Shown here: positions 295-4,885 of the stretch, in pieces
How the letters are laid out: every line of letters begins with the position of its first letter
Position numbering within the stretch: position 1 is the first letter of the stretch
DNA from: Oceanicola sp. 22II-s10i
GTDB lineage: Bacteria > Pseudomonadota > Alphaproteobacteria > Rhodobacterales > Rhodobacteraceae
Length of the DNA stretch: 64,000 nt
Reading direction: 5' to 3'
Assembly (NCBI RefSeq): GCF_002210105.1
Contig: NZ_AQQU01000007.1
Coordinates: 186,001-250,000 of the forward strand
Translations under genes and position numbers: made by a program
Notes under the pieces: model-generated
What the model saw: only the letters and a program-made list of their open reading frames with translations
Databases searched by the model: none
Told to the model about the DNA's origin: nothing

Positions 295-1377
295 TCACCG
301 ATTGTTCGAGAAGGTGAAGAGGGACTGGAGGGCAAACATCACCCGGTCCAGCAGGAAGCCGATGATGCCGATGGTCAGCACCGCGACGATGATCTTGGCC
401 AGCGACTGCGACGACCCGTTCTGGAACTCGTCCCAGACGAACTTGCCGAGGCCGGGGTTCTGGGCCAGCATCTCGGCCGCGATCAGCACCATCCAGCCCA
501 CACCGAGCGACAGGCGCAGACCGGTGAAGATCAGCGGCAGCGCGGACGGCAGGACCAGCTTGGTGATCTTGGTCCAGGTATTCATCTTGAGCACCTTGGA
601 GACCGAGACGAGGTCCTTGTCGATCGACGCCACGCCGAGCGCGGTGTTGATCAGCGTCGGCCAGAGCGAGCAGAGCGTCACGGTGATCGCCGAGACGAGG
701 AACGACTTGGCGAAGAAGCCGTCATTGGTGGCGTAGACCGCCGAGACGACCATGGTCACGATCGGCAGCCATGCCAGCGGGCTGACCGGCTTGAAGATCT
801 GCACCAGCGGATTGATCGCGGCATTCGCGGTGGCCGACAGGCCGGCGGCGATGCCGAGCGGGATCGCGACGACGGAGGCCAGCAGGAAGCCAAAGAACAC
901 GGTCTGGATCGAGGTCCAGATCTGGTCGTAGTAGCTGGGCGCGCCGGTATAGGGGATGTCCTTGACCTGGTCCGTCTTGCCCTGCTCGATCAGCCGCGCA
1001 TTGCGCTTCTCGACCCGGTCGTAATGGTCGGCGCGCTTTTCGGCCTTGGCTTCGGCGTCGGCATGCAGGTTCACCGCCTCGGTCCAGACTTCCGCCGGGC
1101 CGGGAATGGCGCCGAGCGAGGTCTGCACCTTGGGCGCCAGCGTGCCCCAGAGCAGCAGGAACGCCATGATGGAGATCAGCGGAACGGCCAGCAGCCGCCA
1201 GATGTCCTTGAGTTGCGCGCGGGGGTTGTCGCCCGCGGCGGCGCGCAGGATCGGGGTGATCCATGCGAGGCCGAGAACCTGGAACCAGGCATCGGCTTTG
1301 TTGATCCGCGTGAAGAGCCGGGCCCGCCGGGCCTCGCGCGCTTCAGTGGCAGCAAATTGGGGGTCGATCGTGGTCAT
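295..1377 (-). CDS. nrtB: Nitrate ABC transporter permease NrtB
   Basis: Inner-membrane permease of the nitrate importer, 360 residues. A soluble N-terminus is followed by a first membrane segment near residues 60-80, then a polar stretch rich in charged residues (about 100-145), then the BPD_transp_1 core. The core contains the EAA-type loop, seen as LSLGVGWMVLIAAEM, which contacts the ATPase. A longer open frame runs upstream to 1650, but it overlaps the hairpin-rich nrtA-nrtB spacer. I chose the ATG at 1377 because the protein that follows matches the expected family length. The gene follows nrtA and precedes the ATPase on the same strand. Confidence 0.9.
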   Translation of the reverse strand: MTTIDPQFAATEAREARRARLFTRINKADAWFQVLGLAWITPILRAAAGDNPRAQLKDIWRLLAVPLISIMAFLLLWGTLAPKVQTSLGAIPGPAEVWTEAVNLHADAEAKAEKRADHYDRVEKRNARLIEQGKTDQVKDIPYTGAPSYYDQIWTSIQTVFFGFLLASVVAIPLGIAAGLSATANAAINPLVQIFKPVSPLAWLPIVTMVVSAVYATNDGFFAKSFLVSAITVTLCSLWPTLINTALGVASIDKDLVSVSKVLKMNTWTKITKLVLPSALPLIFTGLRLSLGVGWMVLIAAEMLAQNPGLGKFVWDEFQNGSSQSLAKIIVAVLTIGIIGFLLDRVMFALQSLFTFSNNR

Positions 1378-1410
1378 TGGTCTCGGTCCGTGTTGTCGGT
1401 TGCGGATGAT

Positions 1411-1446
1411 CCCCGCCGCGCGTCCGGGAGAGTGACGGCGGCGGGG
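1411..1446 (-). other. Inverted repeat in the nrtA-nrtB spacer
   Basis: CCCCGCCGC at 1411-1419 pairs with GCGGCGGGG at 1438-1446, giving a 9-bp stem and an 18-base loop. No T-tract follows on the minus strand. It is more likely an RNA-stability or processing element, lowering nrtB expression relative to nrtA, than a strong terminator. Confidence 0.4.
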
Positions 1447-1474
1447 ACACGCGGGGCGTTGCGTCCAAGCGTAG

Positions 1475-1494
1475 GGTGCGTGCTTGCACGCACC
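1475..1494 (-). other. Stem-loop directly after the nrtA stop codon
   Basis: GGTGCGTGC and GCACGCACC form a perfect 9-bp stem around a 2-base turn, two bases beyond the nrtA stop. There is no T-run. Such hairpins after periplasmic binding-protein genes commonly protect the upstream message from 3' exonucleases, so that binding protein is made in excess over permease. That role is inferred here. Confidence 0.55.
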
Positions 1495-1496
1495 GC

Positions 1497-2864
1497 TCAC
1501 CCCTTGACTTCGTTGCCTTCGACGGTCTGTTCGCCCTTCAGCCCGATCGGCAGGCTTTCGAGGTAGGCGTTCGGTGCCTTGCCGTCGTAGGGGATGCCGT
1601 CGATGATGTCGGCTGCGGGGGTCGGCGCCTTGTAGCCGTCGCTGTCCCACGGGAAGTCGGCTTCGTTCGCCAGACCTTCGTCCACCAGCAGGCGCGCGGC
1701 CTTGAGGTAGATTTCAGGCTTGTAGACCGACTTGGCGACTTCGTCGTACCAGCTGTCCGCCTTCGCCTCGCCGATCTGGCCCCAGCGACGCATCTGGGTC
1801 AGGTACCAGACGGCGTCCGAGTAGTAGGGATAGGTCGCGTTGTAGCGGAAGAAGACGTTGAAGTCGGGAACCGAGCGCTTGTCGCCCTTCTCGTATTCGA
1901 AGGTGCCGGTCATCGAGTTCGCGATCACCTCGGCATCCGCGCCGACATAGTCGGGACGCGACAGGATCTCGACCGCTTCGGGACGGTTGGCGTTTTCGTT
2001 CTCGTCCAGCCAGATCGCGGCGCGGATCAGCGCCTTGGTCACGGCAAGTGTGGTGTTCGGATACTGCTCGGCAAATTCCGCCGTGATTCCAAAGACTTTC
2101 TCGGGGTTGTTCTTCCACAGCTCGTAGTCGGTGATGACCGGCACGCCGATCCCCTTGAACACCGCCTGCTGGTTCCACGGCTCACCCACGCAGTAACCGT
2201 AGATCGTGCCGGCCTCGAGCGTGGCGGGCATCTGCGGCGGCGGGGTCACGGACAGCAGCACGTCGGCGTTGATCTGGCCGGTGATGTTGTCCTGGCTGTA
2301 GTAGCCCGGATGCAGACCGCCCGCGGCCAGCCAGTAGCGCAGTTCGTAGTTGTGGGTGGAGACCGGGAAAACCATGCCCATGTTGAAGGGCTTGCCCTCG
2401 GACTTGTACTTGTCGACCACCGGCGCGAGGGCCGAGGCGGAAATCGGGTGCTGCGGCTTGCCGTCGGCGCCGGTCGGGATGTTCGGCTTCATCTGCTCCC
2501 AGATCTCGTTGGAGACTGTGATGCCGTTGCCGTTCAGGTCCATCGAGAACGGGGTGATGATATGCGCCTCGGTGCCGAAGCCGATGGTGGCGGCCAGCGG
2601 CTGGCCGGCCAGCATGTGCGCACCGTCCAGGGTGCCGTCGATCACGCCGTCCAGCAGGACCTTCCAGTTCGCCTGCGCCTCGAGCGTCACGAACAGGCCC
2701 TCGTCGTCGAAGAAGCCCTTTTCATAGGCCACCGCCAGCGGCGCCATGTCCGTCAGCTTGATGAAGCCGAAGGTCAGCGTGTCCTTTTCCAGGTCCAGCA
2801 TTTCGGCGAAGGCGGGGCTGACCAAAGCCGTGGTTGCCGCCAGTCCGATCAGGAGTTTCTTCAT
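1497..2864 (-). CDS. nrtA: Periplasmic nitrate-binding protein NrtA
   Basis: High-affinity periplasmic solute-binding protein of the NrtA/CmpA family, 455 residues. A signal peptide covers residues 1-20, with a basic start MKK, a hydrophobic core and an AFA cleavage site. Family motifs follow: [19 protein letters not shown] near the N-terminus, and [13 protein letters not shown] and YCVGEPWNQ further in. The start codon is preceded by a purine-rich AGAGAGGGA. It is the first structural gene after the attenuator-type leader at 2900-3025 and is followed by nrtB. Its paralogue NasS, encoded just upstream, lacks a signal peptide. Confidence 0.94.
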
Positions 2865-2910
2865 CGTTCAGTCCCTCTCTCAGCCCCGGTGAAACGGGGA
2901 AAAAAAACGC

Positions 2911-2963
2911 AAAAAAGGCCGCTGCACATCCAGCCGTGGAAACGGCGGAGCGCGAGCGACCTT
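2911..2963 (-). terminator. Intrinsic terminator in the nrtA leader (attenuator)
   Basis: In the RNA sense, AAGGTCGCT (2963 to 2955) pairs with AGCGGCCTT (2923 to 2915), nine pairs with one G-U. A nested 5-bp hairpin (2933-2946) sits in the loop. Six T follow directly, and a second run of eight T lies at 2907-2900. The 5' arm lies inside hairpin P2, so this terminator and P2 are mutually exclusive. Confidence 0.82.
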
Positions 2964-2967
2964 GCTC
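2954..2967 (-). promoter_or_regulatory. ANTAR hexaloop hairpin P2
   Basis: In the RNA sense, stem GAGC/GCTC closes the six-base loop AAGGTC, with A at loop position 1 and G at position 4. The whole loop and three bases of the 3' stem are also the 5' arm of the downstream terminator. Confidence 0.75.
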
Positions 2968-2995
2968 AGCAAATCCCTGTCATTGGGAGAATTCG

Positions 2996-3025
2996 GTATC
3001 GGAACGCCCCGTTGCGGTCCGATAC
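2996..3025 (-). promoter_or_regulatory. ANTAR hexaloop hairpin P1
   Basis: In the RNA sense, GTATCGGA pairs with TCCGATAC (8 bp). After a C-U mismatch, CGC pairs with GCG around the loop AACGGG, which has A at position 1 and G at position 4. This is the upstream half of the paired-hexaloop motif recognised by ANTAR proteins such as NasT. Confidence 0.78.
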
Positions 3026-3029
3026 ACTG

Positions 3030-3059
3030 TCTATAGGGCGGTCCCGCTTTCCCGCGCAA
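3030..3059 (-). promoter_or_regulatory. Candidate sigma-70 promoter of nrtA
   Basis: TTGCGC (3059 to 3054) and TATAGA (3035 to 3030) are 18 bases apart on the minus strand. Both boxes match the consensus only partly. A start 6-8 bases downstream would put the 5' end of the message at hairpin P1, as expected for an attenuator leader. A nitrogen-controlled sigma-54 or NtrC site was not recognised. Confidence 0.35.
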
Positions 3060-3131
3060 ACGTCTTGTGGCCGGATCGGCCGGATTTTCGCTGCAGGGCG
3101 GCGACGGGCGGAAATTCTGCCGTTATTTTGG

Positions 3132-4304
3132 TCAGTCCGACGCCGAAGGATCGAAAATGCGGCCATCGAAGAACGCATCGGGCAGCAGGCTCAGGTGTCC
3201 CTTCTCGGACGAGACCGCCATCGGGACGCGAATCGAGCCTTCCAGTTTCTCCGACGCGCCGGGCAGATCGGCATCCGTGCCGGACATGTGCTGGCGGTAG
3301 AGATCGCTGCGGAACACGGCCCCCGCGCGGGTGACACTGTCCGCCGGCAGCCCGTTCGCCAGCGCCAGCCTGCGCGCGATCCACTTCGCCTGGCTGCGCC
3401 AGGGGAATGTCGCCGCCCCGTCGTGGAATTCGAGGAAGCCGTCCACATCCCGCATCTCGCCCTGCGCGGTGACGGTGAAATGCCCCGTCAGCGAGCGGTC
3501 GATCAGTTCGGGCGCGACATCGAGCCATTCGGGCCGCGCCAGCAGCTCCGCCGTGGCCGTCCGGCTCTCGGGCCGTGCCAGCCAGCGCCCGGCGTTCCAG
3601 ATCGCGCGCATCAGGCGGCCCAGCAGGTGCGGTTCGGTCTCGGCCCAGTCGGTGCGCACGGCCAGCACCTTTTCCGGGGCGAAGGACCAGATCGCCTTGC
3701 CGGGCAGCAGCAGCGCCCCTGCCCCCTGATCGACGGCCACCGACCCCCACGGTTCACCCACGCAGAAGGCGTCGATGTCGCCCTCGGCCAGCGCCTGCGC
3801 CATCAGCGGCGGCGGCACGGTGCGGATCTCGATCGTCCTGCCGGACAGGTCCGTGCTCTCGAACCAGTAGCGCAGCAGTTCGACATGCATCGAGAACGGG
3901 AATGGCACGCCGAAGACCATGCGTTTGCCCGCGACCCCCGCCAGCGCCCGCGCGGCGGCCACCGGATCGGCGAAGTCGAACCCGTAGCCGGTTTCCCGCA
4001 GACGGTCCGCAAGCGCCGAGCTGACGCCGATGACGTCGCCGTTGACCGACAACACCGACACGGCGGAAAGCGGCACGGTCACACCGCCCAGCCCCAGGGC
4101 CATGGCGACGGGCACGGGCGACAGCAGATGCGCGGCATCCACCCGCCCGAAGGCCAGCATATCGCGGACCGAGGACCACGACGGCGCCGCGATCAGGTCG
4201 AGCGTGATGCCCTCGGCCTCGGCAAAGCCCATTTCCTGCGCGATGATCAGCGGGGCCGCATCGACCAGCGGCACGTAGGCGACGGACAGCGTGACGGTCT
4301 TCAT
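3132..4304 (-). CDS. nasS: Nitrate sensor NasS (NrtA-like, cytoplasmic)
   Basis: A 390-residue NrtA/CmpA-family protein without a signal peptide: it starts MKTVTLSVAYVPLVDAAPL and goes straight into the binding fold. It shares the family motifs seen in NrtA, such as HLLSPVPVAMALGLGG and FCVGEPWGSVAV. Cytoplasmic NrtA-like proteins encoded beside an ANTAR protein are NasS nitrate/nitrite sensors. Without ligand they sequester NasT. The start overlaps the nasT stop by 4 bases, implying translational coupling and matched stoichiometry. Confidence 0.9.
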   Translation of the reverse strand: MKTVTLSVAYVPLVDAAPLIIAQEMGFAEAEGITLDLIAAPSWSSVRDMLAFGRVDAAHLLSPVPVAMALGLGGVTVPLSAVSVLSVNGDVIGVSSALADRLRETGYGFDFADPVAAARALAGVAGKRMVFGVPFPFSMHVELLRYWFESTDLSGRTIEIRTVPPPLMAQALAEGDIDAFCVGEPWGSVAVDQGAGALLLPGKAIWSFAPEKVLAVRTDWAETEPHLLGRLMRAIWNAGRWLARPESRTATAELLARPEWLDVAPELIDRSLTGHFTVTAQGEMRDVDGFLEFHDGAATFPWRSQAKWIARRLALANGLPADSVTRAGAVFRSDLYRQHMSGTDADLPGASEKLEGSIRVPMAVSSEKGHLSLLPDAFFDGRIFDPSASD

Positions 4305-4885
4305 CTCAGCAGCCCCGACGCGGTCATCAGCGCCTCGGCCACCTCGGCCACGCGGCGGCCCTGGTCCATCGCGGTCTTGCGCAGCAGGGCATAGGCCTCG
4401 TCCTCGCCGATCCCGCGCGCCTTCATAAGCATGCCCTTGGCGCGGTCGATGACCTTGCGCTCTTCCAGAGCACGCCGCGTTTCGGCCAGTTCGGTGCGCA
4501 TCCGGCGCATCATGCGGAACCGCGCGATGGCGGTGTCCATGACCGGCTTCAGCCGCTCGGGCCGCAGCCCGTCCACCACGTAGGCCGACAGCCCCGCCTC
4601 GATCGCGGCCTGCGACAGGTCGCCCGCCGGGCCCGAGACGAACATGGCGACCGGGCGGTCCAGCGGACCGGATGCCAGCGTCAGTTCCTCGAGCATGTCG
4701 CGGGTCGGGTTGTCGATGTCGATCAGGACCACGTCCGGTGCATGCGCGGCCACTTTGCGGGCCAGGCCCGAGGTGGAGCCGATCACGTGCACATCGTAAT
4801 CGCCCGCATCCCGCAGCGCGTCGACAATGCCGATGGCCCGGTCACGGTCCGGTTCGACGACGACGATGGTGAGCTTGGCGGTCAT
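4301..4885 (-). CDS. nasT: ANTAR-domain antiterminator NasT
   Basis: RNA-binding response-regulator-like protein of 194 residues. Residues 5-120 form a receiver-like domain (IVVVEPDRDRA, VVLIDIDNPT). A coiled linker follows, then a C-terminal ANTAR three-helix domain at about 133-190 (ERKVIDRAKGMLMKARGI, DEAYALLRKTAMDQGR). It is encoded immediately before nasS and upstream of nrtA, whose leader carries the paired hexaloops that ANTAR domains bind. In known NasST systems it is controlled by binding to NasS rather than by phosphorylation. Confidence 0.92.
   Translation of the reverse strand: MTAKLTIVVVEPDRDRAIGIVDALRDAGDYDVHVIGSTSGLARKVAAHAPDVVLIDIDNPTRDMLEELTLASGPLDRPVAMFVSGPAGDLSQAAIEAGLSAYVVDGLRPERLKPVMDTAIARFRMMRRMRTELAETRRALEERKVIDRAKGMLMKARGIGEDEAYALLRKTAMDQGRRVAEVAEALMTASGLLR

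Follow-up and report, generated by a model that had tools for sequence, protein, structure and literature searches.

In Paracoccus denitrificans, nitrate or nitrite is reported to dissociate the NasS-NasT complex, and NasT binds the leader of nasA (PMC3795266). Two hairpins of this leader, HI and HII, are named in the paper that places them 137 and 91 bp before nasA; HI was described there, by mutation, as required for expression, and in the HII mutant the expression with nitrate was hardly changed and that with ammonium was two-fold higher (PMC5424462). In Bradyrhizobium diazoefficiens, NasT is described as acting on several operon leaders, including those of nosR and probably nirA (PMC6759348). 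Since NasS-NasT leaders are established in both organisms (PMC3795266, PMC5424462, PMC6759348), the leader described below belongs to a known kind of switch.

Two other ANTAR systems are also relevant. The targets of EutV in Enterococcus faecalis consist of two hairpins with A1/G4 hexaloops, the second of which (P2) overlaps the terminator (PMC3369931). Their linkers are given as 5-12 bases and a linker of 14 already fails (PMC3369931), a 20-base extension abolishes the antitermination in vitro, and the EutV crystal paper argues that the dimer is unable to hold both hairpins at once, although the spacing is critical (PMC8934654). An actinobacterial survey set the linker bound for curation at 2-25 nt (PMC8164766). 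In the nasF leader of Klebsiella oxytoca, which likewise places nas genes under nitrate control, NasR alone senses nitrate and binds RNA, the two-hairpin motif is reported to suffice, and SELEX selected a C:G closing pair and A1/G4 loops (PMC7496416).

The leader between nasS and nrtA

The window (the whole stretch of DNA analysed, 64 kb) carries the genes and leader elements listed in Table 1. As in P. denitrificans, nasT-nasS lie directly upstream of a leader with hairpins: the domain matches to ANTAR and NMT1_2 confirm this arrangement, which an earlier note on this DNA had read from the sequence, and an ANTAR protein and an NrtA-like sensor are encoded by adjacent genes, as expected for NasS-NasT. 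No ANTAR match other than NasT was found in the genome. On reading, an export signal is predicted at the start of nrtA and none in nasS. The match of nrtB to TIGR01183 (E 2.3e-44) falls under the curated cut-off of that model. Past the window follow a double ABC ATPase, nirB, a Rieske-like frame that we take for nirD, a molybdopterin nitrate reductase, a TrpD-type gene of the glycosyl-transferase family, and cysG. The TrpD-like gene (L112:5872-6819, minus strand), between nasA and cysG, adjoins nas genes in many of 20 relatives.

Table 1. Features of the nas locus and its two leaders (window positions, except in the last row)
Feature	Position	Strand	Basis or detail
nrtB, permease	295..1515	-	BPD_transp_1; frame as submitted
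nrtA, transporter's nitrate-binding protein, first controlled gene	1497..2864	-	PF13379 (NMT1_2) E 1.1e-95
Two U-runs	2900..2916	-	2916-2911 and 2907-2900
Intrinsic terminator stem	2915..2963	-	arms 2963-2955 / 2923-2915; nine pairs
P2, ANTAR-type antiterminator hairpin	2954..2967	-	loop AAGGTC; four pairs plus U.G below
Linker from P1 to P2, 28 bases	2968..2995	-	coordinate check
M, middle hairpin UCCC-AAUGACA-GGGA within the linker	2974..2988	-	conservation of the CCC..GGG core; absent from the RNAalifold consensus
P1, ANTAR-type hairpin	2996..3025	-	loop AACGGG at 3013-3008; 11 standard pairs and one C.T mismatch
Possible promoter TTGCGC-18-TATAGA	3030..3059	-	just upstream of P1; read from the sequence
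nasS, NrtA-like nitrate sensor	3132..4304	-	PF13379 (NMT1_2) E 1.7e-64
nasT, ANTAR antiterminator protein	4301..4885	-	PF03861 E 7.1e-22; weak receiver domain match
Second NasT-type leader (P1, P2, terminator, U-run), before cysG	L112:5722-5779 = contig C37:177722-177779	-	R1 E 0.008

The leader falls within the minus-strand gap that separates nasS (3132) from the ATG of nrtA (2864). P1, P2, the nine-pair terminator, and the two U-runs had been proposed in the earlier note, and all of their coordinates were exact on recheck. P1 and P2 agree with the published definition of an ANTAR target, namely a pair of hairpins, each with three or more base pairs and a hexanucleotide loop carrying A1 and G4 (PMC3369931); these two residues, to which the note had drawn attention, are seen in both AACGGG and AAGGTC. 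The C:G closing pair selected by NasR (PMC7496416) is also present, and it is invariant for P1 and P2 in 93 aligned leaders. A combined scan for two A1/G4 hexaloops with an overlapping terminator (at least 8 pairs, T5) found this single site in the 64-kb window, whereas 150 order-1 random windows of 64 kb yielded no such site. Rfam gave no match in the window at the gathering score, the best of four sub-threshold matches having an E of 0.85.

The 5′ arm of the terminator (2963-2955) is composed of the P2 loop and three bases of the P2 3′ stem, and the predicted folds agree with the mutual exclusion that the note had claimed. The full leader (2895-3030) folds into the terminator form at -56.8 kcal/mol (z -4.1), which none of 200 shuffled sequences equals, versus -45.6 kcal/mol when P2 is forced. 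When the leader is cut before the 3′ arm of the terminator, the fold consists of P1, a middle hairpin, and P2, with a weaker signal (z -1.3; 18 of 200 shuffles equal it). Because the terminator is the fold of the full leader and the P2 constraint costs energy, the model predicts that P2 and the terminator are mutually exclusive and that the default state is the stop, whereas read-through requires something that holds P2.

The overlap of P2 with the terminator and the two A1/G4 hexaloops are shared with the E. faecalis targets, from which the present leader differs in its 28-base linker with a conserved internal hairpin. The two systems also differ in their input: EutV is a phosphorylated response regulator, while the present system would work by release from a sensor. 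NasR differs again, in that it combines sensing and RNA binding in one protein.

A further hairpin, CCCCG-TTTCAC-CGGGG (2884-2899, minus strand), follows the U-runs and precedes the ribosome-binding region of nrtA. A hairpin at least as strong is present in 52 of 87 leaders, versus 31% of random tails.

Conservation across relatives and the hairpin within the linker

Relatives of NasS were collected in a scan of genome contigs (226, the best 80 of which were kept), and 120 genomes of the family were searched, which gave 30 loci including the own locus. In total, 109 gaps between nasS and nrtA were read, that of the window among them. The P2 pattern served as the anchor and is present in all 109 gaps; P1 was found by script in 103, and in L065, where the script misassigned it, the usual P1 was placed by alignment. 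Removal of 16 near-duplicates left 93 non-redundant leaders, which were aligned by MAFFT. From these, 87 leaders (without the six lacking a script-found P1) were used for the counts on the linker, the M loop, and the palindrome mentioned below, and 76 stretches were obtained by also dropping loop distances outside 44-53 and sequences more than 90% alike.

In all 93 leaders, the six missed by the script among them, P1 has an invariant C:G closing pair, A1, and G4, and the distance from the P1 loop to the P2 loop is 44-53 in 100 of 103 leaders. In the 76 aligned P1-M-P2 stretches, 85.4% of the cells are paired, as compared with 25-43% when the partners are slid. Covariation of the two hexaloop stems, the absence of which the earlier note had regarded as fatal to its reading, was found for P1, in which both partners change at 8 of 10 pairs. 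P2 hardly varies and gives no covariation signal (94.5% of the cells paired; both-side change at one of five pairs). This near-invariance is expected, since the P2 bases serve both folds, and it makes the covariation test scorable for P1 only; as the G4 of P2 lies within the anchor, its constancy is not independent evidence. The terminator stem has 90.6% of its cells paired in the 93 leaders and both-side changes at three of nine pairs.

A covariance model built from the 76 stretches (R1) matched 38 of the 120 family genomes, and all 38 are within the 43 that have a NasS match better than 1e-45, while none of the 77 genomes lacking a strong NasS was matched. At least 16 of the 43 genomes had fed R1, so that the proportion of 38/43 is partly built in, but that of 0/77 is not. 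The strong-NasS genomes without an R1 match are five (G017, G023, G063, G068, and G105). Eight of the 77 carry weaker NasS matches (1e-42 to 1e-5), mostly at the level of the NrtA-like paralogue; the weak match in G021, on a short contig, may be a fragment of NasS. In the host genus, the leader stands before nrtA in 19 of 19 genomes with NasT and in none of the three without it. These co-occurrences, together with the P1 covariation and the status of NasT as the lone ANTAR protein, support the note's interpretation of the locus as an ANTAR nitrate switch. At an E of 0.01, R1 matched 7 of 240 genomes in a sample of the class and 6 of 249 in a sample of the phylum, the better matches being mostly from the host family. 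Five covariance-model matches outside nas and cysG loci (L117, L118, L119, L120, and L162) were dismissed as chance; no gene of the query set of eight was close to any of them.

The note had recommended comparing the linker with known targets: at 28 nt it is longer than the eut linkers (5-12) and above the survey bound of 2-25, which we read as not defining for ANTAR targets, it fits the variable-linker definition given in PMC3369931, and it holds a conserved hairpin, M (2988-2974), that the note had overlooked. The CCC..GGG core of M is found in 85 of 87 linkers, as compared with 196 of 4350 shuffled ones (4.5%). The pair outside the core is U-A in 67 linkers, G-C in 9, and A-U in 4, and this outer position is paired in 81 of 85, versus a mean of 59.6 and a maximum of 70 after shuffling. 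The inner pairs show no covariation, and the RNAalifold consensus lacks M. A hairpin of the quality of M appears in 26% of the shuffles of the window's linker, with a median of 11% across single linkers; since a hairpin in a single linker is thus often due to chance, the case for M rests on its conservation. When M is formed, the unpaired linker is reduced from 28 to 7+6 bases.

The M loop has seven bases in 63 of the 85 cases. Of these heptaloops, 61 have G4, while 44 begin with A and 13 with G; across all 85 loops, G4 occurs in 65 and A1 in 53. In a separate count of the 30 heptaloops that depart from AATGACA at no fewer than three positions besides the fourth, G4 is kept in 28. In sequence, the M loop resembles an ANTAR loop (C:G closure, purine at position 1, and G4) with one base more. 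No account of a three-hairpin ANTAR target was found in open-licence full texts; the nearest case is that of three hairpins near an mRNA start, described as bound by another ANTAR protein (PMC8131098).

Three loops in succession were also found in other lineages. The gap of Paracoccus versutus (L268) has three successive A1/G4 loops (AATGGC, AATGAT, and AAGGGC). In that of P. denitrificans, where two hairpins are named in PMC5424462, we read three (A/G)1-G4 loops (AACGGC, AATGAT, and GACGAT), the outer two of which start 46 bases apart and match the spacing of HI and HII. Unlike in the present leader, the middle loop of P. denitrificans is a hexaloop, and its gap lacks a U-run of five or more; no U-run of five was found in the gap of P. 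versutus either. In L259, an alphaproteobacterium from a different family, nasS is followed by three hexaloops, of which the second is ccccAAAGGCgggg, and then by a nine-pair terminator. A further such organism, L277, carries three hexaloops roughly 1.1 kb past nasT, and a U-run follows the third. Each of these triples occurs by chance in 0-2 of 3000 random sequences of similar composition. The MFE folds contain all three hairpins in L259 and part of them in the Paracoccus sequences and L277. No clear triple was found in P. yeei (L269) or Paracoccus sp. Arc7-R13 (L270). Among 20 distant loci, L255, L256, L262, L265, and L266 look like compact two-hairpin targets, and the hairpin scan gave no clear target in most of the others.

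A second leader before cysG

R1 has one further match in the host genome, located 11.2 kb downstream of the nrtA leader, before cysG. It comprises P1 (gcgac-AACGGC-gtcgc), P2 (gggc-AAGGCT-gctc), and a terminator with a U-run; the MFE fold of its P1-P2 part does not take the three-hairpin form. The site could have been a one-off, since no hexaloop pair was seen before cysG in the 12 of 20 relatives whose analysed stretch included this gene. This was overturned by the matches within the genus: a second R1 match with an E below 1e-3 was found in 10 other genomes, before cysG in all 10, and the cysG leader of G591 was found through a DNA search, which brings the number to 11 other genomes of the genus. 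Weaker third matches occur in G590 (E 0.0097) and G586 (E 0.033).

A second model (R2), built from 18 cysG leaders, matched 60 of 290 family genomes, many of them at nrtA leaders. Beside the own locus, 29 R2 loci were opened: 9 are before cysG and 20 before nrtA, and 8 of the 9 cysG loci belong to other genera (eight in number). In G088, the cysG match begins at residue 201, and the gene may be of a shorter kind. The cysG leader is 225 kb to 1 Mb away from the nrtA leader in G601, G593, G590, G071, and G088, and in other genomes the two are on different contigs of draft assemblies. NasT would therefore act in trans on these remote cysG leaders. In the 18 cysG leaders, the M core is CCC..GGG in 12 and CC..GG in 17, without support from shuffling.

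Siroheme is described as the cofactor of nitrite reductase (PMC6616083). We infer that NasT binds both the nrtA and cysG leaders, which would make them a candidate shared regulon. Action on several leaders is known from B. diazoefficiens; the text of the paper on that NasT does not name cysG (PMC6759348), whereas the second target here would be siroheme synthase. An account of a NasT leader before cysG was not found in open-licence full texts. The description of the locus as a complete self-contained nitrate switch, given in the earlier note, needs amending in view of the second leader and the structured linker. The switch is ordinary in kind, and the linker hairpin and the cysG target appear to be new.

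Possible modes of action and the promoter question

The gap between nasS and nrtA is very probably a NasT-controlled transcription attenuator with the conserved hairpin M. When nitrate is absent, NasS would hold NasT, the leader would fold into the terminator, and transcription would end before nrtA. When nitrate or nitrite is present, NasS would free NasT, which would bind the hairpins of the emerging RNA and hold P2, the source of the terminator 5′ arm; the polymerase would then go on to transcribe nrtABC and the genes for nitrite reductase and nitrate reductase. M would fold between P1 and P2 and shorten the unpaired distance, and it may be a third, weaker or relay contact of NasT, as its loop has the C:G closure, a purine at position 1, and G4. 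Against this mechanism stand the slight effect of the HII mutation in P. denitrificans (PMC5424462), the lack of a covariation signal for P2, and the five strong-NasS genomes in which R1 had no match.

Alternatively, the leader might be nothing but a terminator that shields nrtA from transcription coming through nasTS, with incidental hexaloops; its site between nasTS and nrtA and the good terminator would suit this. Such a role is nevertheless highly improbable: P1 lies outside the terminator and yet has invariant loop bases and strong covariation, none of the 77 family genomes without a strong NasS carries the leader, an equivalent element stands before cysG, and nasTS points the opposite way in L158. 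The role of M is a separate question. Its fixed place between P1 and P2 and its short, G+C-rich stem would accord with an RNA polymerase pause or timing hairpin that lets NasT load before the terminator arm is made, but the ANTAR-like bases of the M loop are not predicted by such a function, which we consider unlikely.

It is quite conceivable, though short of probable, that M is a compaction element only, which brings P1 and P2 to the short spacing of ANTAR targets and is itself untouched by NasT. The failure of EutV with lengthened linkers (PMC3369931, PMC8934654), the 7+6 unpaired bases left by M, and the better conservation of the stem core (85/87) than of the whole loop all argue for this, as do the cysG leaders with shorter linkers, in which M is weaker. 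A mere spacer, however, leaves unexplained the G4 in 61 of 63 heptaloops (28 of 30 in those diverged elsewhere) and the A1/G4 hexaloops at the middle place in L268, L259, and L277. A bolder reading is proposed here only tentatively: the NasT targets of Rhodobacterales and some other alphaproteobacteria would be three-loop arrays read by a roughly hexameric NasT. M would be the third loop bound by the ANTAR protein, in most Rhodobacterales with seven bases instead of six, and NasT would gate siroheme synthase as well. Three NasT dimers might sit on the three hairpins, or one dimer might be relayed from P1 through M to P2; the hexamer would be the form that nitrate frees from NasS.

If true, such an array would account for the activity of NasT over linkers of a length at which EutV fails. 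The way in which one ANTAR protein makes use of two hairpins can be tested directly on this conserved leader, in which nature has combined a long linker with a third loop of ANTAR-like sequence. Gating of siroheme synthase by NasT, often in trans, would couple the production of nitrite reductase to that of its cofactor; through the cysG leader, the NasT regulon would take in this cofactor in a widespread bacterial group.

As for the start of the leader transcript, a strict sigma-70 scan found no consensus promoter for it, and the relatives have a GCATA-like consensus at the aligned place upstream of P1. In G591 (L158), the leader precedes nrtA even though nasT and nasS are oriented divergently from this gene, which suggests that it has its own promoter between nasTS and nrtA. 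A palindrome close to CTGC-N3-GCAG, described as the PhaR site of Rhodobacter sphaeroides (PMC12542648), was also seen upstream of P1 (window 3091-3101, minus strand). With at most one mismatch it occurs in 70 of the 87 leaders versus 6.7% of random sequences, and in its exact form in 20 of 87 versus 0.7%; through this palindrome, nitrate uptake may be linked to PhaR, a regulator of carbon storage.
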